From NCBI RefSeq assembly GCF_019218295.1, contig NZ_JAHUZF010000006.1, forward strand, positions 2,053,649-2,117,648: 64,000 bases of DNA, given 5' to 3'. The notes beneath the pieces were generated by a model that saw nothing but the letters and a program-made list of their open reading frames with translations, did no database searches and was not told the origin of the DNA. Position numbers and translations under genes: made by a program. This DNA is from Maritimibacter sp. DP1N21-5 (GTDB lineage Bacteria; Pseudomonadota; Alphaproteobacteria; Rhodobacterales; Rhodobacteraceae). Positions 1 to 31,934 of the stretch are shown here, piece after piece; the stretch's first letter is position 1; each line of letters starts with the position of its first letter.

Positions 1-1472
1 AAGATGTCGATCACCACGTCGCGGTGGAACTTCATCCGGAACTCGGTCGCGACCTTGGCGGCATGGACCACGGCCTCGGGATCGTCGCCGTTCACGTGGA
101 AGATCGGGGCCTCCACCATGAGCGCGATATCCGTGGGATAGGGCGAGGTGCGCGAGAAGCTCGGCGCGGTGGTGAAGCCGATCTGGTTGTTCACGACAAT
201 ATGGATCGTGCCGCCGGTGCGGTGGCCACGGATACCCGAGAGCTGGAGACATTCCGCCACCACGCCCTGCCCCGCGAAGGCCGCGTCGCCGTGGAGCAGC
301 ACCGGGATGACCGAGTGGTGCTCGGGATCGCCGAACTGGTCGCCCTTGGCCCGCGCCTTGCCCAGAACAACGGGGTTCACTGCTTCGAGGTGCGAGGGGT
401 TCGCAGTCAGCGACAGGTGGACCTTGTTGCCGTCGAACTCCCGGTCCGACGAGGCGCCGAGATGATATTTCACGTCACCCGACCCGTCCACATCCTCGGG
501 CTTGAAGCTGCCGCCCTGAAACTCGTTGAAGATTGCACGGTAGGGTTTGGACAGCACGTTGGCGAGAACCGAGAGACGGCCCCGGTGCGGCATGCCGATC
601 ACGACCTCTTTCGCGCCAAGGCTGCCGCCGCGCTTGATGATCTGCTCCATCGCGGGAATGAGCGCCTCGCCCCCGTCGAGACCGAAGCGCTTGGTCCCCA
701 TGTATTTGACATGGAGGAATTTCTCGAAACCCTCGGCTTCGACCAGCTTGTTCAGGATCGCGCGGCGGCCTTCGCGGGTGAAGGTGATTTCCTTGCCGTA
801 GCCTTCGATCCGCTCCTTGAGCCAGCCGGATTCCTCGGGGTTCGAGATGTGCATGTATTGCAGCGCGAAGGTGCCGCAATAGGTGCGCTTCACGATGTCG
901 ATGATTTGGCGCATCGAGGCGATCTGGAGCCCCAGAACGTTGTCGATGAAGATCGGGCGGTCCATGTCGGCTTCGGTGAAGCCGTAGCTCTTGGGGTCGA
1001 GCTCGGGGTGCGGGGTGTTGTCGCGCATGCCCAGCGGGTCGATGTCGGCGATCAGGTGGCCCCGGATCCGGTAGGCGCGGATGATCATTAGCGCGCGCAC
1101 AGAGTCCAGAACGGCGCGCTTCACGGCGTCCTCGCTCACGTCGACGTTGGACTTCTTGGCACCTTCCGCGATCTTCGCGGCCAGCGCGGCGGGGCGCGAC
1201 GGAAGGTCGGTCGGCCACTGCCCGTCCAGCGCATGGGTCAGATCGTCGTCAGGTTCCGGCGGCCAGTCGGCGCGCATCCAGGACGGCCCCTGCGCCTCTC
1301 GTTTGACGTCCACCTCGGTGTCGCCCAACTCGCGAAAGAACGCCTGCCAGGCTTCGTCGACCGACGAAGGGTCATTGGCGAACCGCGCGTAGAGCTGTTC
1401 GAGGTATTCGGCATTGTGCCCCTGCATGAAGGAAGAGGCGTGGTAGAGGTCGTTGGGGCTTTGGTCCGTCAT
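1..1472 (-). CDS. sucA: 2-oxoglutarate dehydrogenase E1 component, partial (C-terminus outside window)
   Basis: Thiamine-diphosphate-dependent E1 subunit of the 2-oxoglutarate dehydrogenase complex, which converts 2-oxoglutarate to succinyl-CoA in the TCA cycle. About 490 N-terminal residues are visible; the family is usually near 930-990, so the rest lies left of position 1. The start ATG at 1472 gives the typical opening MTDQSPNDLYHASSF. Family blocks visible on the minus strand include GMPHRGRLSVLANV, the cofactor-region motif GDAAFAGQG and NNQIGFTT. The gene follows sucD by 63 bp and belongs to the sucC-sucD-sucA operon typical of Rhodobacteraceae, where sucB and lpd normally follow. No frame disruption is seen. 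The assignment is very secure. Confidence 0.96.
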   Translation of the reverse strand, partial: MTDQSPNDLYHASSFMQGHNAEYLEQLYARFANDPSSVDEAWQAFFRELGDTEVDVKREAQGPSWMRADWPPEPDDDLTHALDGQWPTDLPSRPAALAAKIAEGAKKSNVDVSEDAVKRAVLDSVRALMIIRAYRIRGHLIADIDPLGMRDNTPHPELDPKSYGFTEADMDRPIFIDNVLGLQIASMRQIIDIVKRTYCGTFALQYMHISNPEESGWLKERIEGYGKEITFTREGRRAILNKLVEAEGFEKFLHVKYMGTKRFGLDGGEALIPAMEQIIKRGGSLGAKEVVIGMPHRGRLSVLANVLSKPYRAIFNEFQGGSFKPEDVDGSGDVKYHLGASSDREFDGNKVHLSLTANPSHLEAVNPVVLGKARAKGDQFGDPEHHSVIPVLLHGDAAFAGQGVVAECLQLSGIRGHRTGGTIHIVVNNQIGFTTAPSFSRTSPYPTDIALMVEAPIFHVNGDDPEAVVHAAKVATEFRMKFHRDVVIDI

Positions 1473-1535: not shown

Positions 1536-2420
1536 TTAGCCTGCAATGGCTTTCTGCACGGCCTCGCCCAGCGTTGCCGGGCTGTCGGCCACCACGATGC
1601 CTGCCTTTTTCATGGCTTCGATCTTGGACTCCGCATCGCCCTTGCCGCCAGACACGATTGCGCCAGCGTGGCCCATGCGACGTCCGGGCGGTGCTGTGCG
1701 ACCGGCGATGAAGCCGGCGACCGGCTTCCAGCGGCCTTTCTTGCGCTGCTCGGCCAGGAACTCGGCGGCTTCTTCTTCGGCCGACCCACCGATTTCACCG
1801 ATCATGATGATCGAGGTGGTCTCGTCGTCGTCGAGGAACATGTCGAGCACGTCGATATGCTCGGTGCCCTTGATCGGGTCGCCGCCGATGCCGACCGCCG
1901 TGGATTGACCAAGGCCAATGTCCGAGGTCTGTTTCACGGCTTCATAGGTCAGCGTGCCCGAACGCGACACGACGCCAACCGAGCCACGCTTGTGGATATG
2001 GCCGGGCATGATGCCAATCTTGCAGGCGTCGGGCGTGATGACGCCAGGGCAGTTCGGGCCGATAAGCCGCGACTTGGAGTCCACCAGCGCGCGTTTGACC
2101 TTCATCATGTCGAGCACCGGTATGCCCTCGGTGATGCAGACGATCAGCTCCATCTCGGCGTCGATCGCTTCGAGGATCGAGTCCGCGGCGAAGGGCGGCG
2201 GCACGTAGATCACGCTCGCGTTGGCTTCGGTCTTGGCCTTCGCCTCGTGGACCGAGTCGTAGACCGGCAGGTTCAGGTGGGTCGAACCGCCTTTGCCGGG
2301 GGTCACGCCGCCGACCATCTTGGTGCCATAAGCGATGGCCTGTTCGGAGTGAAAGGTGCCCTGCGAGCCGGTGAAGCCCTGACAGATGACCTTGGTGTTT
2401 TCGTCGATGAGAATGGCCAT
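1536..2420 (-). CDS. sucD: succinyl-CoA synthetase (ADP-forming) alpha subunit
   Basis: Alpha subunit of succinate-CoA ligase, which makes ATP/GTP and succinate from succinyl-CoA in the TCA cycle. The 294-residue product is full length for the family. It has an N-terminal CoA-binding Rossmann domain ([15 protein letters not shown] near residues 17-31) and a C-terminal ligase domain with the GHAGAI motif that carries the phosphorylated histidine ([18 protein letters not shown]). The start ATG at 2420 lies 4 bp after the sucC stop, so the two subunits are probably translationally coupled. sucA follows in the same direction. Confidence 0.97.
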
Positions 2421-2424
2421 GTTC

Positions 2425-3618
2425 TTATCCTTTCACCGCTTTCACGATCTTCTCGGCACCGTCCGACAGGTTGTCGGCGGCGATGACGTTGAGACCGGAG
2501 TTCGCAATGATTTCCTTGCCCTTCTCGACGTTCGTGCCTTCTAGGCGCACAACGAGCGGGACCTGCAGGCCGACCTCTTTCACGGCGGCGATGACGCCTT
2601 CCGCGATCACGTCGCAGCGCATGATGCCGCCGAAGATGTTCACGAGGATGCCCTTCACGTTCGGGTCCGACGTGATGATCTTGAAGGCTTCCGTCACCTT
2701 CTCCTTCGTCGCACCACCGCCCACGTCGAGGAAGTTGGCGGGTTCCGCGCCGTAGAGCTTGATGATGTCCATCGTCGCCATGGCGAGGCCCGCGCCGTTC
2801 ACCATGCAGCCGATCTCACCATCGAGCGCAATGTAGTTCAGGTCGTATTTGGAGGCTTCGAGTTCCTTGGGGTCCTCTTCGGTCTCGTCGCGCAGGTTCG
2901 CGATGTCGGGCTGGCGATAGAGCGCGTTGCCGTCAAAGCCGAGCTTGGCGTCGAGAACCTTGAGATCGCCCTTGTCGGTCACGATCAGCGGGTTGATCTC
3001 GAGCATCTCCATGTCCTTCTCGACGAAGGCTTTGTAGAGCTGGCCCATGAGCGTGACGCACTGCTTGACCTGCGGACCCTTGAGGCCGAGGGAAAAGGCG
3101 ATGCGGCGGCCGTGGTAGGGCTGGTAGCCCGTGGCCGGATCCACGGAGAACGACAGGATTTTTTCGGGGGTCGACGCGGCGACCTCCTCGATGTCCATGC
3201 CGCCTTCCGTCGAGCAGACGAAAGAGATGCGGCTCGTCTGACGATCCACGAGGAGCGCGAGGTAGAGTTCCGTCTCGATGTCGGAGCCGGCTTCGATGTA
3301 GATGCGGTTCACCTGCTTGCCAGCCGGGCCGGTCTGATGCGTGACCAGCGTGCGGCCGAGCATCTTGCGGGCTTCTTCCGCGGCTTCTTCGACCGATTTG
3401 GCCAGGCGGACACCGCCCTTTTCGCCCGCGCTTTCTTCCTTGAAGTGGCCCTTGCCGCGGCCGCCGGCGTGGATCTGAGCCTTCACGACCCAAAGGGGGC
3501 CGTCCATCTCGCCCGCTTTGGTTTTCGCTTCTTCGGCTTTGAGAACCACGCGACCGTCGGAAACCGGAGCGCCATATTCGCGAAGGAGGGCCTTCGCCTG
3601 ATATTCATGGATGTTCAT
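2425..3618 (-). CDS. sucC: succinyl-CoA synthetase beta subunit
   Basis: ATP-grasp beta subunit of succinate-CoA ligase, carrying the nucleotide site and pairing with SucD. I chose the ATG at 3618 because it gives the universal opening [19 protein letters not shown] and a 397-residue protein, the normal length. A longer in-frame start at 3666 would add 16 unrelated residues. The ATP-grasp region contains [12 protein letters not shown] (around residue 45), and the C-terminal CoA-ligase domain contains [11 protein letters not shown] and [10 protein letters not shown]. It is the first gene of the suc operon. The paired TGTGATCACA elements lie about 110-140 bp upstream. Confidence 0.97.
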
Positions 3619-3724: not shown

Positions 3725-3756
3725 TGTGATCACACGCGCAAATCTTGTGATCACAA
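3725..3756 (-). promoter_or_regulatory. paired TGTGATCACA palindromes upstream of sucC
   Basis: Two perfect 10-bp palindromes TGTGATCACA lie at 3725-3734 and 3746-3755; the second extends to 12 bp, 3745-3756. Their centres are 21 bp apart, two helical turns. Read toward sucC, the spacer is AGATTTGCGCG. The same arrangement with spacer AGACATTTGCG occurs upstream of sdhC. This is most likely a two-site operator for a transcription factor controlling the TCA operons. A possible -10 box, TATTAT, lies just downstream in the suc direction. The regulator is not identified. Confidence 0.75.
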
Positions 3757-3784
3757 AGATGTTTTCAATCCCGGAAAGGCGAAA

Positions 3785-3803
3785 GGCGGGCCTCACGCCC
3801 GCC
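3785..3803 (-). terminator. hairpin downstream of the tetR gene
   Basis: A perfect 7-bp stem (GGCGGGC/GCCCGCC) with a 5-nt loop (CTCAC) lies 35 bp past the TetR stop codon. On the minus strand it is followed by a modest T-rich stretch. It probably ends tetR transcription before the suc promoter region. Confidence 0.55.
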
Positions 3804-3838
3804 TCCGGAATCGCACCATCCGCCGGAGTGGGGCGCGC

Positions 3839-4387
3839 TCATCGAGTCGCGCGAAGCCCTTCATAGACGAGGTCATAAGCGCGCCGCCGCCCCTCGGGAC
3901 CGATGTTGGGCGTGGTCGCCGCGGCGGCCAGCATGACGGCGAAGATCACCACGTCAGCTTCCCGCAGATCCGCCCGCACGAGTCCTTCCGAGACGGCACG
4001 GCGCACATGGGGCTTGAGCAGCGCATGGAACCGGTCGATGGCTTCGAGCAGCACGGGATCTTCCCGGCTTTGCGCGCGCACATAATCGGCGACCGGCGAA
4101 TAATGCACCATTTCATTGTAAAAGGTGGTCACCAGTTCGAAAATCGAAGCGCCCTCTTGCGGCAAACCCGCACTGACCGCTTCGAGTTTATTCAGGAACT
4201 GGTCCAGCATCTCGTTGATGAGCGCCCGGCGATCCGCGAAGTGCCGAAAAAATGTCGCTCTTCCAACGCCGGCACGCTGTGCAATGGTATCGAGAGGCGC
4301 ACCCACACCGCGTTCGAGAAAAATCTCGTCTGCCGCATTCAGGATCCGCAACCGGTTCTCGTTGAAATCGGCGCGTCTTTTCGTCAT
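3839..4387 (-). CDS. TetR/AcrR family transcriptional regulator
   Basis: Helix-turn-helix repressor of the TetR type, 182 residues from ATG 4387 (MTKRRADFNENRLRILNAAD). An upstream in-frame start at 4438 would add 17 residues unlike the family. The N-terminal HTH is clear: ILNAADEIFLERG, then PLDTIAQRAGVGRATFFRHF. The C-terminal ligand-binding domain is generic, so no ligand can be inferred. The gene stands alone between mdh and the suc operon. A perfect 12-bp palindrome 71-82 bp upstream of its start may be its own operator. Its targets are unknown, and nothing links it to the TCA genes beyond position. Confidence 0.88.
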   Translation of the reverse strand: MTKRRADFNENRLRILNAADEIFLERGVGAPLDTIAQRAGVGRATFFRHFADRRALINEMLDQFLNKLEAVSAGLPQEGASIFELVTTFYNEMVHYSPVADYVRAQSREDPVLLEAIDRFHALLKPHVRRAVSEGLVRADLREADVVIFAVMLAAAATTPNIGPEGRRRAYDLVYEGLRATR

Positions 4388-4457
4388 GTCTATCCCATCT
4401 CTTTGTCGGAATATGTGCCGCCCCTCTCCCAAAAACAAAAGGGCAAATTGTCACCGC

Positions 4458-4469
4458 TCACAGCTGTGA
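4458..4469. promoter_or_regulatory. palindrome upstream of tetR, candidate autoregulatory operator
   Basis: TCACAGCTGTGA is a perfect 12-bp palindrome in the short intergenic region upstream of the TetR gene. TetR-family proteins commonly bind such palindromes at their own promoter, so autoregulation is a reasonable inference. No second copy was seen. Confidence 0.35.
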
Positions 4470-4603
4470 CGCATCTATACCACAAATTAACCGAATAGGT
4501 GAGACCTGATTGTCCGCTTCTTCAAGGCAGGGGTTCGGCGGCGTATGGTGCGCCTGAACAGCTGGCGATGAAGCCTGGTTCTTTGCCATGAGGAAACGTA
4601 AAA

Positions 4604-4627
4604 GGGGCCGGCGTTTCCGCCAACCCC
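4604..4627 (-). terminator. rho-independent terminator of mdh
   Basis: An imperfect 10-bp stem (GGGGCCGGCG/CGCCAACCCC, two mismatches) with a 4-nt loop lies 25 bp beyond the mdh stop. On the minus strand it is followed by TTTTACG, as expected for an intrinsic terminator. Confidence 0.65.
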
Positions 4628-4651
4628 TGGAATGACAGGTCACGCCGTCGC

Positions 4652-5629
<978 letters not shown>

Positions 5630-5727
5630 TCAGGTTTACTGTCCCTGCGCTGCCTAGCCCCCTTCCCCGATCTGTTCAAGGGCGCGGCGATGCAGCATGG
5701 CCGTGTCGCGAGGGGTTGCGGCCAGAA

Positions 5728-6531
5728 ATGGTGGCGCTAAACCTCAAGTGGTCCAAGGGCTTCGGGGTGCGGCATACTGTGGAATACAACCTGACCTTCT
5801 TCGCCGTCGCCACGGTCGCCGTCGTCTTTGCCGGCGTTTCCAAGGGCGGCTTCGGGTCAGGAGCGGCCTTTGCGGCGACACCACTGCTCGCCCTGATTCT
5901 TGAACCGGGGCAGGCAGTTGGCCTGATGCTGCCGCTCCTCATGCTGATGGATGTGACGGCCCTGCGTCCCTATTGGCGCAAGTGGGACGGACGCGCGGCG
6001 GGGGTGTTCATCCTTGGCGCTGTGCCCGGGGTGGCGGTCGGGACGGCGGTCTATTCGCTCGCGAACCAGGATGTGTTCCGGCTCATGATCGGGGCGGTCG
6101 CGGTCGGCTTCGTGGCGTTTCAGCTCGCCCGGAAATACGGCCTTCTGCGTCCGGCGCGGCGCCCGATGGGCGATCTGGGCGGTGGCATTGCCGGGGCGGT
6201 CGGGGGGTTCACCAGCTTCGTGAGCCATGCAGGCGGCCCGCCCGCCGCGATCTTCCTGCTGTCGCGCGGGCTCGACAAGACGACCTATCAGGCGACCACG
6301 GTGCTCATGTTCTGGGCGATCAACCTGATGAAATTCGTGCCCTATGCGCTTCTGGGCATCTTCACCTGGGATACGCTCAAAGCCGACCTGATGCTTGTTC
6401 CTGCCGCCGTCGTCGGCGTTTGGCTCGGGGTCCGGGCGCACAACGTGATCCCTGAACGCCTCTACTTCACGATCACCTATGCACTTCTGCTTGCGACCGG
6501 AGGCAAGTTGATCTGGGATGCGCTGACCTGA
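5728..6531 (+). CDS. TauE/SafE family membrane permease (sulfite/organosulfonate exporter type)
   Basis: Inner-membrane protein of the TauE/SafE (DUF81) family, 267 residues from the ATG at 5728, with about eight hydrophobic segments. Family signatures include the glycine-rich first helix ending in GVSKGGFGSGAAF and a repeat-like second half beginning GGGIAGAVGGFTSFVSHAGGPP. Members export sulfite, sulfoacetate or other anions, but the substrate cannot be read from sequence. The start is uncertain: TTG at 5716 and GTG at 5779 are also in frame, and the GTG would place the start right at the first helix. It is divergent from mdh, and no partner genes are adjacent. Confidence 0.85.
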   Translation: MVALNLKWSKGFGVRHTVEYNLTFFAVATVAVVFAGVSKGGFGSGAAFAATPLLALILEPGQAVGLMLPLLMLMDVTALRPYWRKWDGRAAGVFILGAVPGVAVGTAVYSLANQDVFRLMIGAVAVGFVAFQLARKYGLLRPARRPMGDLGGGIAGAVGGFTSFVSHAGGPPAAIFLLSRGLDKTTYQATTVLMFWAINLMKFVPYALLGIFTWDTLKADLMLVPAAVVGVWLGVRAHNVIPERLYFTITYALLLATGGKLIWDALT

Positions 6532-6543
6532 GACGCGCCGGGG

Positions 6544-6849
6544 TCAGGTCGGCTGACCCGAGGCGACGGCCTCCTCGACCTCTTCCCAGGATTGCCCGGC
6601 AGCGATGATGCACATCTGTCCGTCGGGCAGCGTTACCGTGATGGTCCAGCTGCCAGAGATGTCGGAGGCAAAGGTTTCCACGACGCGATCGCCCTGCGCC
6701 ATGCCGATGGATTGCCGCGACTCGCCGAACCTGTCTGCAAGCTGGGTGAGCACCAATTCCCGGTCTGCGCATTGGTTCTGGGCAAGGACCGGCAGCGTCA
6801 TGGTGAGCACCGCGCCGATCCCAAGTGAGATAATCAGAGAACGTTTCAT
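6544..6849 (-). CDS. small exported protein of unknown function
   Basis: A 101-residue product starting at ATG 6849. It begins with a clear signal peptide (MKRSLIISLGIGAVLTMTLPVLAQ) with probable cleavage after the AQ near residue 24. The mature part has two cysteines (NQCADRELV and DGQMCIIAAG) that could form a disulfide, and it ends in an acidic helix (SWEEVEEAVASG). I do not recognise a named family, though small periplasmic proteins of this pattern recur in Rhodobacteraceae. The reading frame stays open far upstream, antisense to mcl2 and mch. Only this last part is believable, because the signal peptide starts cleanly here. Confidence 0.75.
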   Translation of the reverse strand: MKRSLIISLGIGAVLTMTLPVLAQNQCADRELVLTQLADRFGESRQSIGMAQGDRVVETFASDISGSWTITVTLPDGQMCIIAAGQSWEEVEEAVASGQPT

Positions 6850-7026
6850 GTCATCGCCCTTTCGTTCGGTGCCTTCATCATCGCGAACGAAGCGCGAAAA
6901 AGTGGTTAACTCGGCGAACGGCACCCCAAAGGCGTTGCCTATGCTGCGTCGCGGCAGAACAGGGCTTGCCAATTCATGCGCAGCCATGTTGTTTTGCGCA
7001 ACAAAATTGCCCAGAGGAAGAATCGA

Positions 7027-7878
7027 ATGACCCTGTCCCGTCCCGTGCGCTCCGTGCTCTACATCCCCGGCTCGAAGGAACGCGCGCTGGACAAGGCCCG
7101 GGGACTGGTCGCCGACGCGATCATCTTCGACCTCGAGGACGCGGTGACGCCCGACGCGAAGGACGATGCGCGCGAGACGCTGAAGGCGGAGCTTGCCAAG
7201 GGCGGCTTCGGCAACCGGATGAAGATCGTGCGGATCAACGGGTTCGACACCGACTGGGGCCGCGCGGATGCCGAGGCTTTCGCCGGGGCCGACATCGACG
7301 CCCTGCTCCTGCCCAAGGTGAACAGCGCCGCCGATCTCGACTCGCTGGCCGAGGTTTCGGGCGACACGCCGCTCTGGGCGATGATGGAGACGCCCGAGGG
7401 TGTGCTGAACGCCAAGTCCATCGCGGCGCACCCGCGTCTGCAAGGCATCGTCATGGGCACCAACGATCTGGTCAAGGAACTGGGCTGCCGGGTCACGCCC
7501 GACCGTTTCGCGCTCATGACCTCGCTGCAACTGGCGCTCCTCGCCGCGCGGGCGGCCGGCAAGGTCATCGTGGACGGGGTCTACAACGCCTTCAAGGACG
7601 ACGAGGGCCTGCGGGCGGAATGCGTCCAGGGCGTCGCCCTGGGCTTCGACGGCAAGACGCTGATCCACCCGGCGCAGCTCGACGTGACGAACGAGGTCTA
7701 TGCCCCGTCGGAGGCGGACCTCGACCTCGCACGCCGCCAGATCGCAGCTTTCGAGGAGACCGAGGCCTCGGGGCAGGGCGTCGCCGTCGTCGATGGAAAG
7801 ATCGTGGAGAATCTGCATATCGTGACGGCGAAAGCTCTGCTCGCCAAGGCAGAGGCCATCGCCAGCCTCGAAGGATAA
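7027..7878 (+). CDS. mcl2: (3S)-malyl-CoA thioesterase / CitE-like lyase family
   Basis: HpcH/HpaI-aldolase superfamily protein of 283 residues (start ATG 7027, preceded by AGAGGAAG). The opening RPVRSVLYIPGSKERALDKA and the motif IIFDLEDAVTPDAKDDAR (metal and CoA binding) are typical of the CitE/malyl-CoA lyase group. In Rhodobacter the shorter paralogue Mcl2 hydrolyses (3S)-malyl-CoA to malate and CoA in the ethylmalonyl-CoA pathway, and it lies near mch and sdh, as here. I therefore prefer thioesterase over lyase; the full lyase Mcl1 is longer (about 318 residues). It probably heads an operon with the NnrU gene, the DUF1737 gene and mch. An 8-bp palindrome TTGCGCAA at 6994-7001 sits just upstream. 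Confidence 0.85.
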   Translation: MTLSRPVRSVLYIPGSKERALDKARGLVADAIIFDLEDAVTPDAKDDARETLKAELAKGGFGNRMKIVRINGFDTDWGRADAEAFAGADIDALLLPKVNSAADLDSLAEVSGDTPLWAMMETPEGVLNAKSIAAHPRLQGIVMGTNDLVKELGCRVTPDRFALMTSLQLALLAARAAGKVIVDGVYNAFKDDEGLRAECVQGVALGFDGKTLIHPAQLDVTNEVYAPSEADLDLARRQIAAFEETEASGQGVAVVDGKIVENLHIVTAKALLAKAEAIASLEG

Positions 7879-7881
7879 GCC

Positions 7882-8427
7882 ATGATAGTGTTGATTTTGG
7901 GGGTGCTCCTGTGGTCGGGCGCCCATCTGTTCAAGCGCCTTGCGCCCGATGCGCGGGCGCGGATGGGCGACAAGGGGCGCGGGCTCGTGGCGCTTGCGTC
8001 CTTGGCCGGTATCGTTCTGATGGTCATCGGCTACCGGATGGCGGACGGTGCGGTGCACTGGGGCCGGACACCGGCGCTCGTCGGGATCAACAACCTGCTC
8101 GTGCTTCTCGCGGTCTATCTTTTCGCCGCCTCCGGCATGAAGACCTGGATCACGTCGAAGATCCGGCATCCCCAACTGACGGCGGTCAAGGCCTGGGCGC
8201 TCGCCCACCTGCTCGTGAACGGCGATGTTCCGTCTTACGTCCTCTTCGGCGGTCTCCTCGTCTGGGCCGTGCTCGAGGTCATCCTGATCAACCGCGCAGC
8301 CCGCCCCGCGAAAGCCACCGGACCCTTCCCGATGGGTAAGGAAATCGGCGCTGTGGTTGGCGCTGTGGTCGTCTTCGGGGTCATCGCCTGGGTGCACACC
8401 TGGCTTGGCTATCCAGTGTTCGGGTGA
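7882..8427 (+). CDS. NnrU family membrane protein
   Basis: A 181-residue inner-membrane protein with about five hydrophobic helices, beginning MIVLILGVLLWSGAHLFKRL. The pattern of the first helix and SGMKTWITSKIRHPQLTAVK fit the NnrU family, first described near denitrification genes but widespread without that role. It starts 3 bp after the mcl2 stop, so it is co-transcribed with the ethylmalonyl-CoA pathway genes. Its biochemical function is unknown, and the neighbourhood gives no direct clue. In Rhodobacter relatives the same gene sits between mcl2 and mch. Confidence 0.8.
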   Translation: MIVLILGVLLWSGAHLFKRLAPDARARMGDKGRGLVALASLAGIVLMVIGYRMADGAVHWGRTPALVGINNLLVLLAVYLFAASGMKTWITSKIRHPQLTAVKAWALAHLLVNGDVPSYVLFGGLLVWAVLEVILINRAARPAKATGPFPMGKEIGAVVGAVVVFGVIAWVHTWLGYPVFG

Positions 8428-8436
8428 GGTGACGTC

Positions 8437-8640
8437 GTGAAACTCTATCGCTTCCTGTCGGCCGACGACACGTCGGAATTCTGTCACAAGGTCACGGCCG
8501 CGCTCAACAAGGGCTGGGAACTCCACGGCTCGCCCACCTATGCCTTCGACGCCGCGAATGGCGTCATGCGCTGCGGCCAGGCGGTCACCAAGGACGCGCC
8601 GGGGGTCTATACCCCGGAGACAAAACTGGGAGAGCAATAG
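8437..8640 (+). CDS. DUF1737 domain protein
   Basis: A 67-residue soluble protein with a GTG start at 8437. It matches the short DUF1737 pattern: an N-terminal MKLYRFLSADDTSEFCHKVT, then LNKGWELHGSPTYAFD with the conserved GW..HG core. Function is unknown. It starts 9 bp after the NnrU gene, and its stop directly abuts the mch start, so it is embedded in the mcl2-mch operon. Confidence 0.8.
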   Translation: MKLYRFLSADDTSEFCHKVTAALNKGWELHGSPTYAFDAANGVMRCGQAVTKDAPGVYTPETKLGEQ

Positions 8641-9675
8641 GTGGCAAAAACCAATCCGGGCCGTTTCTTCGAGGATTACCGGGTGGGCGAGACCATCCGC
8701 CACGCGGTGCCGCGCACCCTGTCCGGTGGCGAGCGGGCGCTCTATCACGCGCTCTATCCTGCGCGTCATGCGCTTTATTCCTCGGATGAATTCGCGCGGG
8801 CCTCGGGGCTGGCGGCCTCGCCCATGGACGATCTGGCTGCCTTCCATGTGGTCTTCGGAAAATCGGTCCCTGACATCTCGCTCAATGCCGTCGCGAACCT
8901 CGGCTATGCCGAGGGGCGCTGGCGTGCACCCGTCTGGCCCGGCGATACCCTCGCCTCCGAGAGCGAGGTGATCGGCCTCAGGGAGAACTCGAACGGCAAG
9001 TCCGGCGTGGTCTATGTGCGCACGAAAGGCACAAACCAGCACGGCGACGTGGTCCTGGACTATGTGCGCTGGGTCATGGTGCGCAAGAAGAACCTCGATG
9101 CGCCCGCGCCCGAAACGGTCGTGCCGGATCTGGCCAAGGTCGTGCCGGCGTCAGAGCTGTGGATTCCCGAGGGGCTCGACTTTACGTCCTACGACTTCGC
9201 CCTTGCGGGCGAGCCGCACCGCTGGGGCGATTACGAGGTCGGCGAAACGATCGACCACGTGGACGGTGTCACGGTCGAGGAAGCCGAGCATATGCTCGCC
9301 ACGCGGCTCTGGCAGAACACGGCCAAGGTGCATTTCGACGCGACCAACCGCGAGGATGGCAAGCGGCTGATCTATGGCGGCCACGTGATCTCGATGGCGC
9401 GAGCGCTGTCCTTCAATGGCCTCGCCAATGCACAGATGATCATCGGTCTGAACGGCGGCGCCCATGCCAACCCCTGCTTTGCAGGCGACACGATCCGGGC
9501 TTGGAGCGAGGTGCTCGACAGGGCCGAGACGCCTGCCCCCGGTGTCGGCGCAATCCGGCTGCGGCTCGTCGCGGTCAAGGGCGACCATCGGGACTTCGCG
9601 CTGAAGGGCGACGACGGGAAATACCTGCCCCATGTGATGCTCGATCTTGACTATTGGGCGCTCATGCCGACCTGA
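8641..9675 (+). CDS. mch: mesaconyl-CoA (beta-methylmalyl-CoA) hydratase, double MaoC-like
   Basis: A 344-residue enzyme with two MaoC-like hot-dog domains (about residues 1-165 and 180-340). This is the length and architecture of Rhodobacter Mch, which hydrates mesaconyl-CoA to beta-methylmalyl-CoA in the ethylmalonyl-CoA pathway of acetate assimilation. The opening PGRFFEDYRVGETIRHAVPR and the second-domain VGETIDHVDGVTVEEAEHM are typical. The start is GTG at 8641, immediately after the preceding stop. Together with mcl2 it indicates acetyl-CoA assimilation without the glyoxylate shunt. Other pathway genes (ccr, ecm, mcd, mcl1) are not in this window. Confidence 0.9.
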   Translation: MAKTNPGRFFEDYRVGETIRHAVPRTLSGGERALYHALYPARHALYSSDEFARASGLAASPMDDLAAFHVVFGKSVPDISLNAVANLGYAEGRWRAPVWPGDTLASESEVIGLRENSNGKSGVVYVRTKGTNQHGDVVLDYVRWVMVRKKNLDAPAPETVVPDLAKVVPASELWIPEGLDFTSYDFALAGEPHRWGDYEVGETIDHVDGVTVEEAEHMLATRLWQNTAKVHFDATNREDGKRLIYGGHVISMARALSFNGLANAQMIIGLNGGAHANPCFAGDTIRAWSEVLDRAETPAPGVGAIRLRLVAVKGDHRDFALKGDDGKYLPHVMLDLDYWALMPT

Positions 9676-9682
9676 TTGCGTC

Positions 9683-10486
9683 ATGCGACGCGCGCTTGCC
9701 CTTGCCCTGATGCTTGGACCCTCGGCCCTCTGGGCGGAGGGGTCCAAGGTGGATTACACCTTTTCGAGGGAAATGGCGGCCCGACCCGTCACCGGCGGGG
9801 AAAGCCGCGTCAACTCCGATCCAGTGCTCGCCTATGTCGAGGCGAATGTCACCGAAACGCTCTATCACGAGCTGGCCCACGCGCTCATCGACGTGCTGGA
9901 CCTTCCGGTCTATGGGCCGGAAGAATTCGCCGCCGACATGTTCGCGATCGTCCTGATGAACCGGCTGCACGACGGTGCAACGGTTGGGGACATGGCGCGC
10001 GACGTAGGGCAGAACTACCGAATCTATGCCGAACATGCGGGCGACCATCCCGACGACCTTGCCCTGTGGGACGTTCATGGCCCGGACATGCAACGGTATT
10101 ACAACTTCGCCTGCCTGATGTACGGCGCCGACATTCAGGGGCGCGAGACGATGCTGGCTGAATTCGACCTGCCGGAAGAACGCGCCGAGACCTGCGAGGA
10201 CGAGTATCGCCTCGCCGCGCGAAGTTGGGGGGCGGTGCTCGACAGTCTGGCCACCGACGCGCCCGGGCAGTCGGTGCGCATCGACTGGGTGCTCAACGAA
10301 GGCGATCACCTGACCGACTTCGTCAAGGGCGAGGTCGCCCGTCTGAACGCGGCCATGGTGCTCCCCGAACCGGTGACGGTCAGCGTCATTCCCTGCGGAC
10401 AATCGAACGCCTTTTATGACCCGGACCCACGCGAGATCCTGATCTGCACCGAACTGGGCGAGGAACTGGCGGCGCTCGCGGAATAG
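9683..10486 (+). CDS. DUF4344 domain exported putative metallopeptidase
   Basis: A 267-residue protein starting at ATG 9683 with a short signal peptide (MRRALALALMLGPSALWAEG). It contains the zinc-peptidase motif HELAH, preceded by VTETLYHELAHALID, and later FAADMFAIVLMN, which could supply a third ligand. This matches the DUF4344 family of putative metallopeptidases. Four or more cysteines in the second half (FACLMYG, AETCEDE, IPCGQS, LICTELGEE) suggest disulfides in the periplasm. It starts 7 bp after the mch stop, so it may be co-transcribed with mch. The substrate is unknown. Confidence 0.78.
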   Translation: MRRALALALMLGPSALWAEGSKVDYTFSREMAARPVTGGESRVNSDPVLAYVEANVTETLYHELAHALIDVLDLPVYGPEEFAADMFAIVLMNRLHDGATVGDMARDVGQNYRIYAEHAGDHPDDLALWDVHGPDMQRYYNFACLMYGADIQGRETMLAEFDLPEERAETCEDEYRLAARSWGAVLDSLATDAPGQSVRIDWVLNEGDHLTDFVKGEVARLNAAMVLPEPVTVSVIPCGQSNAFYDPDPREILICTELGEELAALAE

Positions 10487-10598
10487 ACCGCGCCGGTCGC
10501 CGGGCATGGACCCTGCCCTGCGGTCCCGGACCCCGGGAAATCGTGATTTGTCCGCAGCATGCTGACTTTCGGCGAGGCAGCGTCCGCTGGCGCCCAAC

Positions 10599-10629
10599 TG
10601 TGATCACAAGACATTTGCGTGTGATCACA
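10599..10629 (+). promoter_or_regulatory. paired TGTGATCACA palindromes upstream of sdhC
   Basis: Two identical 10-bp palindromes lie at 10599-10608 and 10620-10629. Their centres are 21 bp apart and the spacer is AGACATTTGCG. The element is about 135-165 bp upstream of the sdhC ATG. Sequence, spacing and spacer (AGA...TTTGCG) match the element upstream of sucC in the same orientation relative to the gene. It is very probably the binding site of a shared regulator. The 278-bp region between the DUF4344 gene and sdhC shows no other feature. Confidence 0.75.
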
Positions 10630-10764
10630 ACACTTCGAAATCCGTGGTGTTAGCGCCTGTCAGCCCCATTTTTCCGTAATCCGCGCGTGACTCTCGCCCG
10701 CTCCCGGGTCTAAGACATGCCGCAATTGCACAAGCCTTCGCCAACTGCATCGAAAGGTCGCTTC

Positions 10765-11148
10765 ATGGCTGATGTGAACCCGCAGGGTCGCCCCCTTTCC
10801 CCCCACCTTCAGGTTTATAGCCTGCCGCTGAACGCGAAACTGTCGATCCTGCACCGGATCGCTGGCGCCGCGCTGAGCGTGACCGCCGTGCTGGTCGTCT
10901 GGTATTTCCTCGCGCTCGCCACCGGGCCGGAATATTTCGAAACCGCCAGCGCCGTGCTCACCTCGTGGTTCGGGGACATCGTGTTCTTCCTCTCGGCCTG
11001 CGGGCTGTGGTTCCACTTTGCGAACGGCGTGCGCCATCTCATCTGGGACACCGGCAGCTATTTCGGCGCCAAGACCACACAGCGTTCGGCGATCTTCGGT
11101 CTCGTCTTCGCCGTGATCATGGTCGCCATCACCGTCATCGTCGCGTAA
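10765..11148 (+). CDS. sdhC: succinate dehydrogenase cytochrome b556 subunit
   Basis: Membrane anchor of succinate dehydrogenase (complex II), 127 residues from ATG 10765. I chose this start because MADVNPQGRPLSPHLQVY is the usual opening; an upstream start at 10717 has no support. Three transmembrane helices are visible. The conserved HRIAG motif (about residues 31-35) lines the quinone site, and WFHFANGVRHLIWD carries the likely haem-ligand histidine. It is first in sdhCDAB, and sdhD follows after 11 bp with an in-between ribosome-binding site (GGGAGG). Confidence 0.95.
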   Translation: MADVNPQGRPLSPHLQVYSLPLNAKLSILHRIAGAALSVTAVLVVWYFLALATGPEYFETASAVLTSWFGDIVFFLSACGLWFHFANGVRHLIWDTGSYFGAKTTQRSAIFGLVFAVIMVAITVIVA

Positions 11149-11159
11149 GGGAGGACCTC

Positions 11160-11537
11160 ATGCGTTATCAGACCGACCGCTCGCGCGTCGAAGGACTTGG
11201 CTCGGCCAAGTCGGGCACGAAACATTTCTGGGAACAGCGTATCAGCTCGATTGCGCTCCTGTTCCTCGTACCGCTCTTCGTCTTCCCCTTCGCCTACAAC
11301 CTTGGCGACGGCTATGAAGAGGTTCTGGCGGCCTATTCGCATCCGGTGAACGCCGTGATCGCCGTCGCTTTTTTCATCACCACCTTCCTGCACCTGTTCC
11401 AAGGCTTGCAGGAGATCATCGCGGATTACGTCCACGGGCGGCGCGGCATGATCCTCATGATCGCGACGCGGCTGCTTTGCTCGCTCTTCGCTCTCGTCGG
11501 CATCTACGCCGTCATCAAAATTTCGCTCGGGGCCTGA
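11160..11537 (+). CDS. sdhD: succinate dehydrogenase hydrophobic membrane anchor subunit
   Basis: Second membrane anchor of complex II, 125 residues from ATG 11160 ([20 protein letters not shown]), preceded by GGGAGGACCTC. It has three hydrophobic helices. The [17 protein letters not shown] segment ahead of helix 1 is typical of alphaproteobacterial SdhD, and histidines in [19 protein letters not shown] are in the haem/quinone region. The frame is open further upstream inside sdhC, but the start here fits length and spacing. Confidence 0.94.
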
Positions 11538-11547
11538 GGGACGGACC

Positions 11548-13353
11548 ATGGCAGAATACGCATACGAAACGCATGAATATGACGTGGTCGTCGTGGGCGC
11601 CGGTGGCGCGGGCCTGCGCGCAACGCTGGGCATGGCCGAACAGGGGCTCAAGACCGCCTGCGTGACCAAGGTCTTTCCGACCCGCTCGCACACGGTTGCC
11701 GCGCAGGGCGGGATCGCCGCCTCGCTTGGCAACATGGGCCCGGACAGCTGGCAGTGGCATATGTACGACACCGTGAAGGGGTCGGACTGGCTGGGCGACA
11801 CGGACGCGATGGAATACCTCGCGCGTGAAGCGCCCGCGGCTGTGTATGAGCTCGAACACTACGGCGTGCCCTTCTCGCGCACCGAGGAAGGCAAGATCTA
11901 CCAGCGCCCCTTCGGCGGTCACACGACCGAGTTCGGCGAAGGCCCCGCGGTGCAGCGCACCTGTGCCGCCGCCGACCGCACCGGCCACGCGATCCTGCAC
12001 ACGCTCTACGGTCAGTCGCTGAAGAACAACGCCGAGTTCTACATCGAGTATTTCGCCATCGACCTGATCATGTCGGAGGACGGCGTCTGTCAGGGCGTGG
12101 TCTGCTGGAAACTGGACGACGGCACCTTCCACGTCTTCAACGCGAAGATGGTGGTCCTGGCGACTGGCGGCTATGGCCGCGCCTATTTCTCGGCCACCTC
12201 GGCGCACACCTGCACCGGCGACGGTGGCGGCATGGTGGCGCGCGCGGGCCTGCCGCTTCAGGACATGGAGTTCGTGCAGTTCCATCCGACCGGCATCTAC
12301 GGCTCCGGCTGTCTGATCACCGAAGGCGCGCGTGGCGAAGGTGGCTACCTCACCAACTCAGAAGGCGAGCGGTTCATGGAGCGCTATGCGCCCCACTACA
12401 AGGACCTTGCGCCGCGCGACTATGTCTCCCGCTGCATGACCATGGAGATACGCGAAGGCCGCGGTGTGGGCGAACATGGCGACCACATCCACCTCAACCT
12501 GTCGCACCTCCCCGCCGAAGCGCTGGCGGAACGTCTGCCGGGGATTTCGGAGTCTGCCAAGATTTTCGCGGGCGTCGACGTCACGAAGGAACCGATCCCG
12601 GTGCTGCCGACCGTGCACTACAACATGGGTGGCATCCCGACGAACTACTACGGCGAAGTGCTGAACCCGACCGAGGGCAACCAGAATGCCGTCGTTCCCG
12701 GCCTCATGGCCGTGGGCGAGGCGGGCTGTGCCTCGGTCCATGGCGCGAACCGGCTTGGGTCCAACTCGCTCATCGACCTCGTGGTCTTTGGCCGCGCCGC
12801 AGCGATCCGGGCGGGCAAGGTGGTCGATGCCTCCGCGGCGAACCCGAAGCTCAATCAGGCGTCGATCGACAAGGCCTTCGACCGTTTCGACGGGCTGCGC
12901 AATGCCAATGGCGGCACGCCGACCGCCGAACTCCGGCTCGAGATGCAAAAGACCATGCAGGCCGACGCCGCGGTGTTCCGGACCGACAAGACACTGGCCG
13001 AGGGGGTCGAGAAGATGACCGCCATCGCCGCCAAGATCGGCGACCTCAAGGTGACGGACCGCTCGCTCTTCTGGAACTCCGACCTCATGGAGACGCTGGA
13101 ACTCACGAACCTCATGCCGAACGCGCTTGCCACCATTCACGGAGCGGAAGCGCGCAAGGAAAGCCGTGGGGCCCATGCGTCGGAAGACCACGACAAGCGC
13201 GACGACGACAAATGGCGCGTGCACACGATTTCGCGCGTCGACGGGAACAAGGTGGACCTCACCTATCGTCCAGTTATCGTCGATCCGCTGACCACCGAAG
13301 ATCAGGGTGGGATTTCGCTCAAGACTATCGCGCCGAAAGCGCGGACGTTCTAA
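11548..13353 (+). CDS. sdhA: succinate dehydrogenase flavoprotein subunit
   Basis: Catalytic flavoprotein of complex II, oxidising succinate to fumarate; 601 residues, full length. The FAD Rossmann motif [15 protein letters not shown] lies near residue 15. The histidine for covalent FAD attachment is in [14 protein letters not shown]. The substrate-site segment [20 protein letters not shown] and [18 protein letters not shown] are intact. It follows sdhD by 10 bp and is followed by sdhB after 12 bp. Confidence 0.98.
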
Positions 13354-13365
13354 GGAGACACGTAG

Positions 13366-14145
13366 ATGGTTGAACTCGCACTCCCCAAGAACTCCCGGAT
13401 CCGAACCGGCAAGACCTGGCCAAAGCCCGCCGGCGCGACGAACGTCCGCAAGTTCATGATCTACCGCTGGACGCCCGACGATGGCGAAAACCCGCGGGTC
13501 GACACCTATTTCCTCGACATGGACAAATGCGGGCCGATGGTTCTGGACGCCCTCATCAAAATCAAGAATGAGATCGACCCGACGCTCACCTTCCGCCGCT
13601 CCTGCCGCGAAGGGATCTGCGGCTCATGCGCGATGAACATCGACGGGCGCAACCACCTCGCCTGTATCTTCGGGCTGGACGAGATCAAGGGCGATGTGAA
13701 GATCTATCCCCTGCCCCACATGCCCGTGGTGCGCGACCTCGTCCCCGATCTCACGCTCTTCTACGCGCAGCATGCCTCGATCATGCCGTGGCTCGAGACC
13801 AAGACGAACGCGCCGCAGAAGGAGTGGCGCCAGTCCATCGAAGACCGCAAGAAGCTTGACGGTCTTTATGAATGCGTTATGTGCGCGTCCTGCTCGACCG
13901 CCTGTCCGTCCTACTGGTGGAACCAGGATCGCTACCTCGGGCCGGCCGCGTTGCTCCATGCCTACCGCTGGATCATCGACTCGCGGGACGAGGCGACCGG
14001 CGAGCGTCTGGACGACCTCGAGGATCCGTTCAAGCTCTACCGCTGCCACACGATCATGAACTGCGCCGAGACCTGCCCCAAGGGGCTGAACCCGGCCAAG
14101 GCGATTGCCGAGATCAAGAAGATGATGGTGCAGCGCTCGATCTAA
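13366..14145 (+). CDS. sdhB: succinate dehydrogenase iron-sulfur subunit
   Basis: Electron-transfer subunit of complex II, 259 residues. All three cluster motifs are present: the [2Fe-2S] ligands in [15 protein letters not shown], the [4Fe-4S] ligands in [13 protein letters not shown], and the [3Fe-4S] ligands in [17 protein letters not shown]. It is the last gene of sdhCDAB and is followed 23 bp later by a strong intrinsic terminator. Confidence 0.98.
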
Positions 14146-28308: not shown

Positions 28309-29157
28309 CTAGAAATCCAGCCCTAGGTCGAGCGTCTTGGCCGAGTGGGTGAGAGCGCCGGACGAGATGTAATCGACGCCAGTGGCGGCAACCTCGGCGA
28401 CGCGACCCAGCTTCATGTTGCCGGAGGCTTCGAGGACAACCTTGCCAGCGGTCAGCTCCACGGCTTTGGCGAGCATGGGCGTGTCCATGTTGTCCAACAG
28501 GACGTTATCGGCGCCGCCGACGTCCAGCACGATGGCCAGTTGTTCGAGGGTGTCGACCTCGATCTCGACCTTCATCATATGCGACGCAACGGCCTGCGCG
28601 GCTTCCAGCACCGCCTTCACGCCGCCCGCCGCTGCGATGTGGTTGTCCTTGATCAGGATGGCGTCCGACAGCGAATAGCGGTGGTTGAAGCCGCCGCCGT
28701 GGAGGACCGCTTGTTTCTCGACCAGCCGCAGACCCGGCGTGGTCTTGCGCGTGCAGGTGATGCGCGTCGCGGTGCCCTTGGTTTCGGCCACGAAAGCGGC
28801 TGTCAGCGTGGCGATGCCCGAGAGTCGCCCCGCGAAATTGAGCGCGACCCGTTCACCCGAGAGGATCGAGGCCGCCCGCCCCCGGATGCGCATGAGCGTC
28901 GTGCCGGGAAGGACCGGGGTGCCATCAGGCACCAGCGTCTCGATCTCGAGCGCCGGGTCGACGAGGCGAAAGGCGATCTCGGCCACCTGCATGCCCGACA
29001 CCACCCCGGGCTCGCGGGCGTTGATCGCCGCGTCATAGGTTGTGGCCGGCGGGATCACCGCGCGGGTCGTGACGTCGCCATAGGTCCCCAGATCCTCCAT
29101 GAGCGCGGCGCGGATCATGGGTTCTAAAATGAGGTCGGGGAGCGTGGAAAAACTCAT
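28309..29157 (-). CDS. nadC: nicotinate-nucleotide pyrophosphorylase (carboxylating)
   Basis: Quinolinate phosphoribosyltransferase, the third step of de novo NAD synthesis, giving nicotinate mononucleotide from quinolinate and PRPP. 282 residues, normal length. Conserved blocks include EDLGTYGDVTTRAVIP, the substrate-binding CTRKTTPGLRLVEKQAV and GGGFNHRYSLSDAILIKDNH. The start ATG at 29157 overlaps the nadB stop by 4 bp. It is last in nadA-nadB-nadC. Confidence 0.97.
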   Translation of the reverse strand: MSFSTLPDLILEPMIRAALMEDLGTYGDVTTRAVIPPATTYDAAINAREPGVVSGMQVAEIAFRLVDPALEIETLVPDGTPVLPGTTLMRIRGRAASILSGERVALNFAGRLSGIATLTAAFVAETKGTATRITCTRKTTPGLRLVEKQAVLHGGGFNHRYSLSDAILIKDNHIAAAGGVKAVLEAAQAVASHMMKVEIEVDTLEQLAIVLDVGGADNVLLDNMDTPMLAKAVELTAGKVVLEASGNMKLGRVAEVAATGVDYISSGALTHSAKTLDLGLDF

Positions 29158-30719
29158 GCCATCTCCTTGGCAACGTGGTCGCGGATCGCCATGGCCTCGG
29201 CCAGCGTGATCTTGGTCCGGGCCGCCATGGCCGGGTCGGGGTTCGGGAAATCGTCGCGGAAATGCCCACCCCGGCTTTCTTCGCGCTGGAGCGCAGCGGC
29301 GGCGATGAGCGTCGCCGTGGCCGTCATGTTGCGCATGGTCTCAGACCGGGACGCAGCTTCGAGGTCGTCGATGATCTTCAGGGCCTCGCGCAGCCCGGTT
29401 CGGGTGCGGCGCACGCCGACCTTGGCCGTCATCGTGTTCCGAAGGTCCTGAACCGCGGCCTCGTCCACGTCTTCTCCCCCCTTGGGAAACTGAATCTCGA
29501 GCTCCGGCGCCGAGGGGACAGCTTCCAGCGTGGCGGCCATATCCTCGGCCGCCTTCTTGCCATAGACGAGCGCTTCGAGGAGCCCGTTGGACGCAAGCCG
29601 GTTCGCTCCGTGAAGCCCGGTCGACGAGGCTTCGCCGCAGACCCAGAGCCGGTCGAGCGACGAACGTCCGTGATCGTCCGTGTCCACCCCGCCCATGTGG
29701 TAATGCGCGGCGACCGCGACCGGGATCGGGTTTGCCACCGGGTCGAAGCCTGCGCGCACGCAGGCCTCGGCCACCGCCGGGAACCGCGTCAGCACCTCGT
29801 CGCCCAGCGCGTCGCGTGTGTCGAGCATCGGGCGCTTGCCGGCCTGCGATTGCTTGAAGATCGCACGGGCCACGATGTCGCGCGGCGCAAGCTCGGCGTC
29901 GGGGTGCTCTTCGAGCATGAAGCGCTCGCCGTCCTTGTTGACGAGGGTCGCCCCTTCGCCCCGGAGCGCCTCGGTCGCGAGCGGCATCGGGTCTTCGCCC
30001 ATGTCGATGGCGGTCGGGTGGAACTGGACGAACTCGGGATCGGCGATGACCGCACCGGCCCGCGCCGCGAAGCCGATCACCTGCCCCCGGATACGCGGCG
30101 GGTTCGTCGTATGAGCATAGAGCCCGCCGGACCCGCCACCTGCGAGCAATACGGCGGGCGTTTCGATCAGTACGGGGCCGGAGGCGGGATCGGTGTGGCG
30201 CACCCAGACGCCGGTGACGCGGTTTCCTTCGGTCTGCAGACCGGTTGCCAGCGCGCTCTCGATCACTTGGACCGAGGGTGTCGCACGGACCTTGGCGACC
30301 AGCGTTTCCATGATCTGCTTGCCGGCCTGATCGCCCTTGACCCGGACCACGCGGGCAGTGGAATGGGCGGCCTCGCGGCTCATCACGTAGCCGCCTTCCG
30401 GCGTGCGGTCGAAAGGCGTGCCAAGGTCGGTGAGGTCGAGGATGTGTTCGGCGGCATGGCTCGTAACCATCGCGGCGACCTGCGCATCGACCGTCCCCGC
30501 GCCCGCGGTCACGGTATCGGCGGCATGGGCGGCAGGGCTGTCGGTGGCCGCCATGGCCGCCGCCACACCGCCCTGCGCCCAGGCCGACGAAGCGCCTTCA
30601 CCCAGGCGTTCGGGCGAAATCATCACCACGGGCCTCGGCGCGAGCGAAAGCGCCGCATAGAGCGCGCCCAGACCTGCGCCCACGATGACCACACGGTCCG
30701 TCTTCACACTGGCGGCCAT
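29154..30719 (-). CDS. nadB: L-aspartate oxidase
   Basis: FAD enzyme that oxidises L-aspartate to iminoaspartate, the first step of de novo NAD synthesis. 521 residues. The N-terminal FAD motif VIVGAGLGALYAALSL and the loop GEGASSAWAQGGVAAAM are clear. The active-site region HYHMGGVDTDDHGRSSLDRL and the GLHGANRLASNGLLEAL block place it in the SdhA/NadB superfamily, and neighbours nadA and nadC settle the choice. It starts 30 bp after nadA and overlaps nadC by 4 bp. Confidence 0.96.
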   Translation of the reverse strand: MAASVKTDRVVIVGAGLGALYAALSLAPRPVVMISPERLGEGASSAWAQGGVAAAMAATDSPAAHAADTVTAGAGTVDAQVAAMVTSHAAEHILDLTDLGTPFDRTPEGGYVMSREAAHSTARVVRVKGDQAGKQIMETLVAKVRATPSVQVIESALATGLQTEGNRVTGVWVRHTDPASGPVLIETPAVLLAGGGSGGLYAHTTNPPRIRGQVIGFAARAGAVIADPEFVQFHPTAIDMGEDPMPLATEALRGEGATLVNKDGERFMLEEHPDAELAPRDIVARAIFKQSQAGKRPMLDTRDALGDEVLTRFPAVAEACVRAGFDPVANPIPVAVAAHYHMGGVDTDDHGRSSLDRLWVCGEASSTGLHGANRLASNGLLEALVYGKKAAEDMAATLEAVPSAPELEIQFPKGGEDVDEAAVQDLRNTMTAKVGVRRTRTGLREALKIIDDLEAASRSETMRNMTATATLIAAAALQREESRGGHFRDDFPNPDPAMAARTKITLAEAMAIRDHVAKEMA

Positions 30720-30749
30720 GCGCCCCTCCCTCGTTCCCCCGAAGGGCGC

Positions 30750-31802: not shown

Positions 31803-31934
31803 GTCGCCCCCCATCATTACGACCCCTGTCCGGGTCATATCGGCCCGTTCAATCAGGTTGCCCGCAAAGCTGCAAGATAAACCGTTGTTTTCGCGGGCAA
31901 TTGGGTCTGAATTGCTGACCTTTATGTGGGGGTT

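Follow-up and report, generated by a model that had tools for sequence, protein, structure and literature searches.

AkgR of Rhodobacter sphaeroides, reportedly treated by Imam, Noguera and Donohue in mBio in 2015 and which we take to be the protein encoded by RSP_0981, is the point of comparison for an element found in a 64,000-nucleotide stretch of DNA (hereafter the window) from Maritimibacter sp. DP1N21-5 (contig NZ_JAHUZF010000006.1, positions 2,053,649 to 2,117,648). The element is a tandem pair of the self-complementary decamer TGTGATCACA, which stands in front of both the sucCDA and the sdhCDAB operon. It is very probably the AkgR operator, to which the protein would bind. In the available excerpts of PMC4344238, suc, sdh and oxoglutarate dehydrogenase are predicted targets of the GntR regulator RSP_0981 in R. 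sphaeroides, and those of PMC6365646 list GTGATCAC among the AkgR binding sites and term AkgR an activator. That AkgR controls suc and sdh has already been published for R. sphaeroides, and as far as these excerpts go the regulator shares with our genome the GTGATCAC core, the suc and sdh targets and the GntR family.

Two further described regulators invite comparison. PS417_07240, a GntR protein from Pseudomonas simiae, is a relative of AkgR (32% identical) and has the same 8-bp palindrome GTGATCAC shortly before its own regulator gene, but it controls deoxyribonate catabolism, and one palindrome rather than a pair is mentioned in the available excerpts (PMC6365646). CceR, of the LacI family, is also a predicted regulator of sdh as well as mdh in R. 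sphaeroides, but its predicted motif is of the GTT-N6-8-AAC type and unlike TGTGATCACA (PMC4344238, excerpts). A CceR-like 14-mer gave one match in the window with three mismatches (4449-4462), which is the level expected by chance. A literature search with GTGATCAC and GntR gave PMC6365646 as the relevant paper, a search with TGTGATCACA gave, judged by its listing, one bacterial paper (PMC12724174, Sphingobium), and looking for GntR operators before sdhC brought up no relevant title.

An exact pattern scan of the window returned four copies of TGTGATCACA, two per operon. The gap is 11 bp in both pairs and the centres lie 21 bp apart, so that the sites and centre distance given by the first-pass annotation were reproduced. 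The sites and the genes behind them are as follows.

3746 to 3755, minus strand: distal putative AkgR site of the suc pair, exact decamer.
3725 to 3734, minus strand: proximal putative AkgR site of the suc pair, exact decamer, with the sucC start codon 107 bp further on (family median 108 bp).
2425 to 3618, minus strand: sucC, succinyl-CoA synthetase beta subunit (Pfam ATP-grasp_2 and Ligase_CoA).
1536 to 2420, minus strand: sucD, succinyl-CoA synthetase alpha subunit (Pfam CoA_binding and Ligase_CoA).
1 to 1472, minus strand: sucA, oxoglutarate dehydrogenase E1, truncated at the window edge and named from the first-pass annotation and its operon position.
10599 to 10608, plus strand: distal putative AkgR site of the sdh pair, exact decamer.
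10620 to 10629, plus strand: proximal putative AkgR site of the sdh pair, exact decamer, with the sdhC start codon 135 bp further on.
10765 to 11148, plus strand: sdhC (Pfam Sdh_cyt).
11160 to 11537, plus strand: sdhD (Pfam Sdh_cyt and CybS).
11548 to 13353, plus strand: sdhA, an open reading frame (ORF) named from sequence reading and operon position.
13366 to 14145, plus strand: sdhB, an ORF named in the same way.

Each of the four TGTGATCACA copies contains the palindrome GTGATCAC exactly. Beyond these four copies the window holds no match at ≤1 mismatch, where 1.08 such single sites are expected by chance. The earlier remark that there were no other copies held for the window but does not extend to single copies in the genome, as eight exact decamers occur in 3.86 Mb, four paired and four single. 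Three of the single copies (L002, L003 and L008) fall within long open frames, which by eye read as PuuD-like, Nudix-like and TsaE-like; L001 is the fourth. The pair itself is confined to suc and sdh in this genome, and the abundance at random sites that had been named as a possible objection was not seen.

The search of related genomes proposed by the first-pass annotation found two exact TGTGATCACA copies separated by 6–16 bp in 187 of 295 Rhodobacteraceae genomes, with no hit in any of the 295 for the reversed control; the suc and sdh promoters of relatives thus did not prove to lack the pair. Scanning named genome records gave at least 119 further stretches. The 149 loci examined below comprise 30 from the 295-genome set and 119 from the named records (among the matches listed, as are all counts on these loci), and the same species may recur. 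They hold 154 pairs, of which 123 precede sucC, 27 sdhC and one sucA, while three lie at locus edges (≤150 bp away), so that 151/154 are located before genes of tricarboxylic acid (TCA) cycle operons. Pair and start codon are separated by a narrowly constrained distance, with a median of 108 bp for sucC (quartiles 106–111) and 136 bp for sdhC, and the gap is 11 bp in 147 of 150 exact pairs and 10 bp in the other three. The paired element is family-wide and strongly conserved. Outside the family, one of 285 alphaproteobacterial genomes contains the pair at ≤2 mismatches, in a scan with a fixed 11-bp gap that misses 10-bp pairs such as the one found in family genome G055 by the wider search.

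Most titles of the records with a pair name Rhodobacteraceae or Rhodobacterales, the exceptions being L087, L090, L118, L146 and L164. Three of these are titled Maritalea (L087), Robiginitomaculum (L090) and Nocardioides (L146). Since the SucC proteins of the exceptions are 88–92% identical to that of our genome, we take them as mislabelled or unplaced relatives; for the three named records the sequences suggest mislabelling or contamination. In one AT-rich Rhodobacteraceae metagenome-assembled genome (L162, ∼1–1500) the pair lies between mdh and sucA without sucCD in between, which indicates that the operator remained with the operon.

GntR-domain matches number 12 in the Maritimibacter genome and none in the window. 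Two of the matching genes are closely related to each other, referred to as group B and group A, and the group B gene is the candidate for akgR:

C4:192587-193255, minus strand: akgR ortholog (group B), with GntR and FCD domains (Pfam).

The best relative of its product with a solved structure is McbR of Escherichia coli (4p9f, E 1.2e-21, residues 25–218). The role of McbR differs from that of AkgR. With a strong ortholog defined as a best E < 1e-60 for the group B query, 265 of the 295 family genomes have a strong match, 12 a weak one and 18 none; group B is also present in all 16 named genomes. Among 18 genomes hand-picked as listing both the group B gene and the pair on one contig, the two lie 5–18 kb apart in 13 and 118 kb to 2.4 Mb apart in the other five. 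This proximity, a few kb in many relatives, agrees with the RSP numbers, which place akgR close to suc and sdh; our genome differs, as its akgR is on another contig than the suc and sdh pairs. Judging from synteny and from sequence similarity among family members, group B would be the ortholog of RSP_0981.

The first reading had also proposed to ask which regulator co-occurs with the motif, and the AkgR ortholog does track the pair. An exact pair is found in 182/265 genomes with a strong ortholog, 3/12 with a weak one and 2/18 with none, that is, in 182/265 against 5/30 of the rest (Fisher p 4e-8, phylogeny ignored). Of the 108 genomes in which no exact pair occurs, 80 were scanned for near pairs, namely all 25 that lack a strong AkgR match and the first 55 among the 83 that have one. 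A near pair (≤3 mismatches, among the matches listed, counted per genome without a gene-by-gene check of position) is present in 52 of these 55 but only three of the 25, and the reversed control gave one in 80. Pair and AkgR have been gained or lost together in the relatives, with the exceptions listed further below.

The group A gene (C6:1780773-1781429) has the same GntR/FCD architecture as akgR and is patchier in the family than group B. Its product might bind the pair, alone or together with AkgR: its recognition helix is similar by eye, and exact pairs are somewhat commoner in genomes with both A and B (107/144) than with B alone (75/121; p 0.03). The same comparison speaks against it, as an exact pair persists in 75 of the 121 genomes that have B and lack A, and the four genomes in which A occurs in the absence of a strong B match are split, two with the pair and two without. 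We find a role for the paralog very unlikely, and as the sole regulator it is disfavoured by the A-less genomes.

A link back to akgR itself is found at its promoter. The 12-mer TTGTGATCACAA, at ≤2 mismatches, gives 53 matches in the Maritimibacter genome and seven for the reversed control; the 53 include a match at C4:193262-193273, immediately before the akgR ortholog. The best 30 of the 277 genomes with a match were taken as akgR loci, 29 of which yielded an ORF (L232 did not). In 13/29, our genome included, a site (≤1 mismatch) ends 2–8 bp before the assigned start codon, and all 13 have TTGAC 17–19 bp before that site. The site would cover the −10 element of a possibly leaderless akgR, from which autorepression is predicted, and AkgR thus probably represses its own gene.

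The sole pair outside the family (genome G440, locus L405) lies between an apparent TonB-dependent receptor gene and a GntR/FCD-type gene whose product is 31% identical to AkgR. The palindrome is here again tied to the AkgR protein subfamily, albeit in a single case. At ∼990–1250 the same locus appears to hold two or three GTGATCAC-like sites in a row. The literature, the co-occurrence across 295 genomes, the site in the akgR promoter and this one linkage outside the family all point to AkgR, in support of the first-pass suggestion of a GntR-, MarR- or similar type factor rather than CRP.

A CRP/FNR-type factor had come to mind because the TGTGA/TCACA half-sites resemble those of CRP. CRP sites have the form TGTGA-N6-TCACA, with half-sites 6 bp apart, while the half-sites of TGTGATCACA abut. 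The early doubt about CRP is borne out by this spacing, on which we reject such a factor, and no CRP analogue is predicted for R. sphaeroides in the available excerpts of PMC4344238. There is hardly any prospect that a protein of this type binds the pair.

A second candidate lies next to the suc pair:

3839 to 4387, minus strand: TetR-family gene (Pfam TetR_N), flanked by mdh and the suc pair and not considered to encode the regulator.

This gene is on the same strand, 84 bp away from the distal site of the suc pair, and its product could for that reason be suspected of controlling suc. Among the loci listed, none of the 109 sucC loci with a pair and at least 900 bp of upstream sequence has a TetR homolog there, and the gene is itself preceded by a different palindrome, TCACAGCTGTGA. 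We therefore reject it as the regulator for the family and give the idea almost no credence. The gene appears as an insertion between mdh and the suc operator in our genome. The TCACAGCTGTGA palindrome (4458-4469) is perfect and has the same half-sites in everted order.

The geometry of the operator was analysed in 130 sdhC promoters, 30 from the loci above and 100 hand-picked from the best-scoring matches, a choice that biases the set to SdhC like that of our genome; four (G048, G059, G160 and G032) have no start codon at the beginning of the gene. A pair at ≤4 mismatches is present in 116/121 promoters from genomes with AkgR and 3/9 from those without. The gap is 11 bp in 102 of the 116 and 10 bp in 14, and the two-turn spacing is thus kept here as it is among the exact pairs, in agreement with the 21-bp phasing pointed out at first. 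Sites two helical turns apart would place their proteins on one face of the DNA, and we infer two dimers per pair. The mismatches fall on decamer positions 1 and 10 in 130/143 cases, and this concentration defines GTGATCAC as the core.

Downstream of the pair, GTGAC occurs 114 times, where shuffled sequences give an expectation of 15.7, and is found in 107 of the 119 promoters with a pair, which makes it a likely −35 element. Its offsets from the proximal centre in 105 promoters form clusters at 52.5–53.5 (2), 61.5–64.5 (87), 72.5–75.5 (12) and 82.5–85.5 bp (4). The 18 offsets of the minor clusters share the phase of the main one, an agreement reached by none of 100,000 uniform draws (phylogeny ignored); the distance from pair to promoter changes in steps of a helical turn. 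A TA-containing −10 follows GTGAC at one spacing in 82/105. In the window these elements give:

10687 to 10716, plus strand: predicted sdh core promoter, with GTGACT as −35 (10687-10692) and TAAGAC as −10 (10711-10716), a spacer of 18 and a start near 10723.

The GTGACT of the window, at an offset of 62.5, lies inside the main cluster of the relatives, while its −10 lies two bases further than in most of them (spacer 16). If transcription starts ∼7 bp past the −10, the centres of the sdh pair would fall near −98 and −119. Scans with the E. coli consensus gave no promoter at sdh or suc. In the sucC set CTATAC occurs nine times, eight of them at offsets 73.5–75.5 and one at 63.5. In both promoter sets the A/T content is periodic at ∼10 bp over ∼50 bp downstream of the pair, with best periods of 9.5 and 10.25. 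None of 1000 column shuffles or 500 per-sequence shuffles was as strong, and the power upstream is about one tenth.

The same promoters bear on an RNA-based explanation. As each copy is self-complementary, the two copies can pair with each other, and they could act as a 10-bp hairpin in a transcript. Between the two copies, the letters at the outer positions, 1 (C) and 10 (G), show covariation (odds ratio 10.8, p 1e-4, not corrected for phylogeny), and of 143 mismatched positions 46 are matched across copies and 16 within one copy. Yet the predicted sdh promoter lies downstream of the pairs, which would leave them outside the sdh transcript, the inner position pair shows no significant association (p 0.19), the nearly invariant 8-bp core leaves no compensatory evidence to be drawn from it, and the geometry matches the helical turns of DNA. 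The hairpin is disfavoured, and we consider it highly improbable.

The position of the pairs also concerns the sign of the regulation. Many GntR/FCD proteins are repressors, and AkgR could bind the pair and repress suc and sdh. The distance of the pairs, far upstream of the predicted promoter, argues against this, as does the term activator in the excerpts of PMC6365646, and we regard repression as very unlikely.

We consider it highly probable that the pairs serve as operators, each for two AkgR dimers, from which sucCDA and sdhCDAB are activated at a distance, with AkgR probably repressing its own gene. AkgR, with its GntR domain and FCD effector domain, would bind as two dimers per pair, well upstream of the core promoter, and may activate in class I style, through contact with RNA polymerase, bending of the phased A/T tracts that separate the operator from the promoter, or both. 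At akgR, the single site over the predicted −10 would allow the protein to repress its own gene.

Several observations weigh against this picture. Among the genomes without an exact pair, three of the 55 with AkgR have no near pair within three mismatches among the matches listed, and the letters of the near matches in G155, where AkgR is present, suggest chance (as do those in G209, which lacks it). Conversely, seven genomes without a strong AkgR match have exact or credible near pairs; their completeness is 73–77% for G264, G033, G273 and G096, 91% for G019, 93% for G256 and 100% for G114. Five of the 121 sdhC promoters from genomes with AkgR lack the pair at ≤4 mismatches, and by the start assignment used 16 of the 29 akgR orthologs have no site before the start codon. 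The suc core promoter was not located, the de novo −10 search giving a scattered ATCGCAGCA-like motif. Finally, dimer binding alone leaves the covariation of positions 1 and 10 unexplained; this covariation may be inseparable from shared ancestry.

Elsewhere in the window, positions 28309-31838 on the minus strand hold a cluster that by eye resembles the NAD biosynthesis genes nadC, nadB and nadA.

Possibly new are the tandem architecture with its turn-sized steps and the autoregulatory site. We see about an even chance that the full arrangement is both real throughout the Rhodobacteraceae and unreported: two dimers 21 bp apart, ∼90–120 bp upstream of the start, with whole-turn steps in distance, phased A/T tracts and autorepression at a possibly leaderless akgR. 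The Rhodobacteraceae are important in marine carbon cycling, and a regulator can now be named, at the confidence given above, for a promoter element that occurs in most of their genomes examined, together with an exact sequence rule by which control of the TCA cycle may be predicted from a genome. If the proposed mechanism is true, AkgR would serve as a model of long-range activation that depends on the helix face and is exerted by a GntR/FCD protein, and the one-turn steps in operator–promoter distance would be a natural experiment on how such an activator acts.

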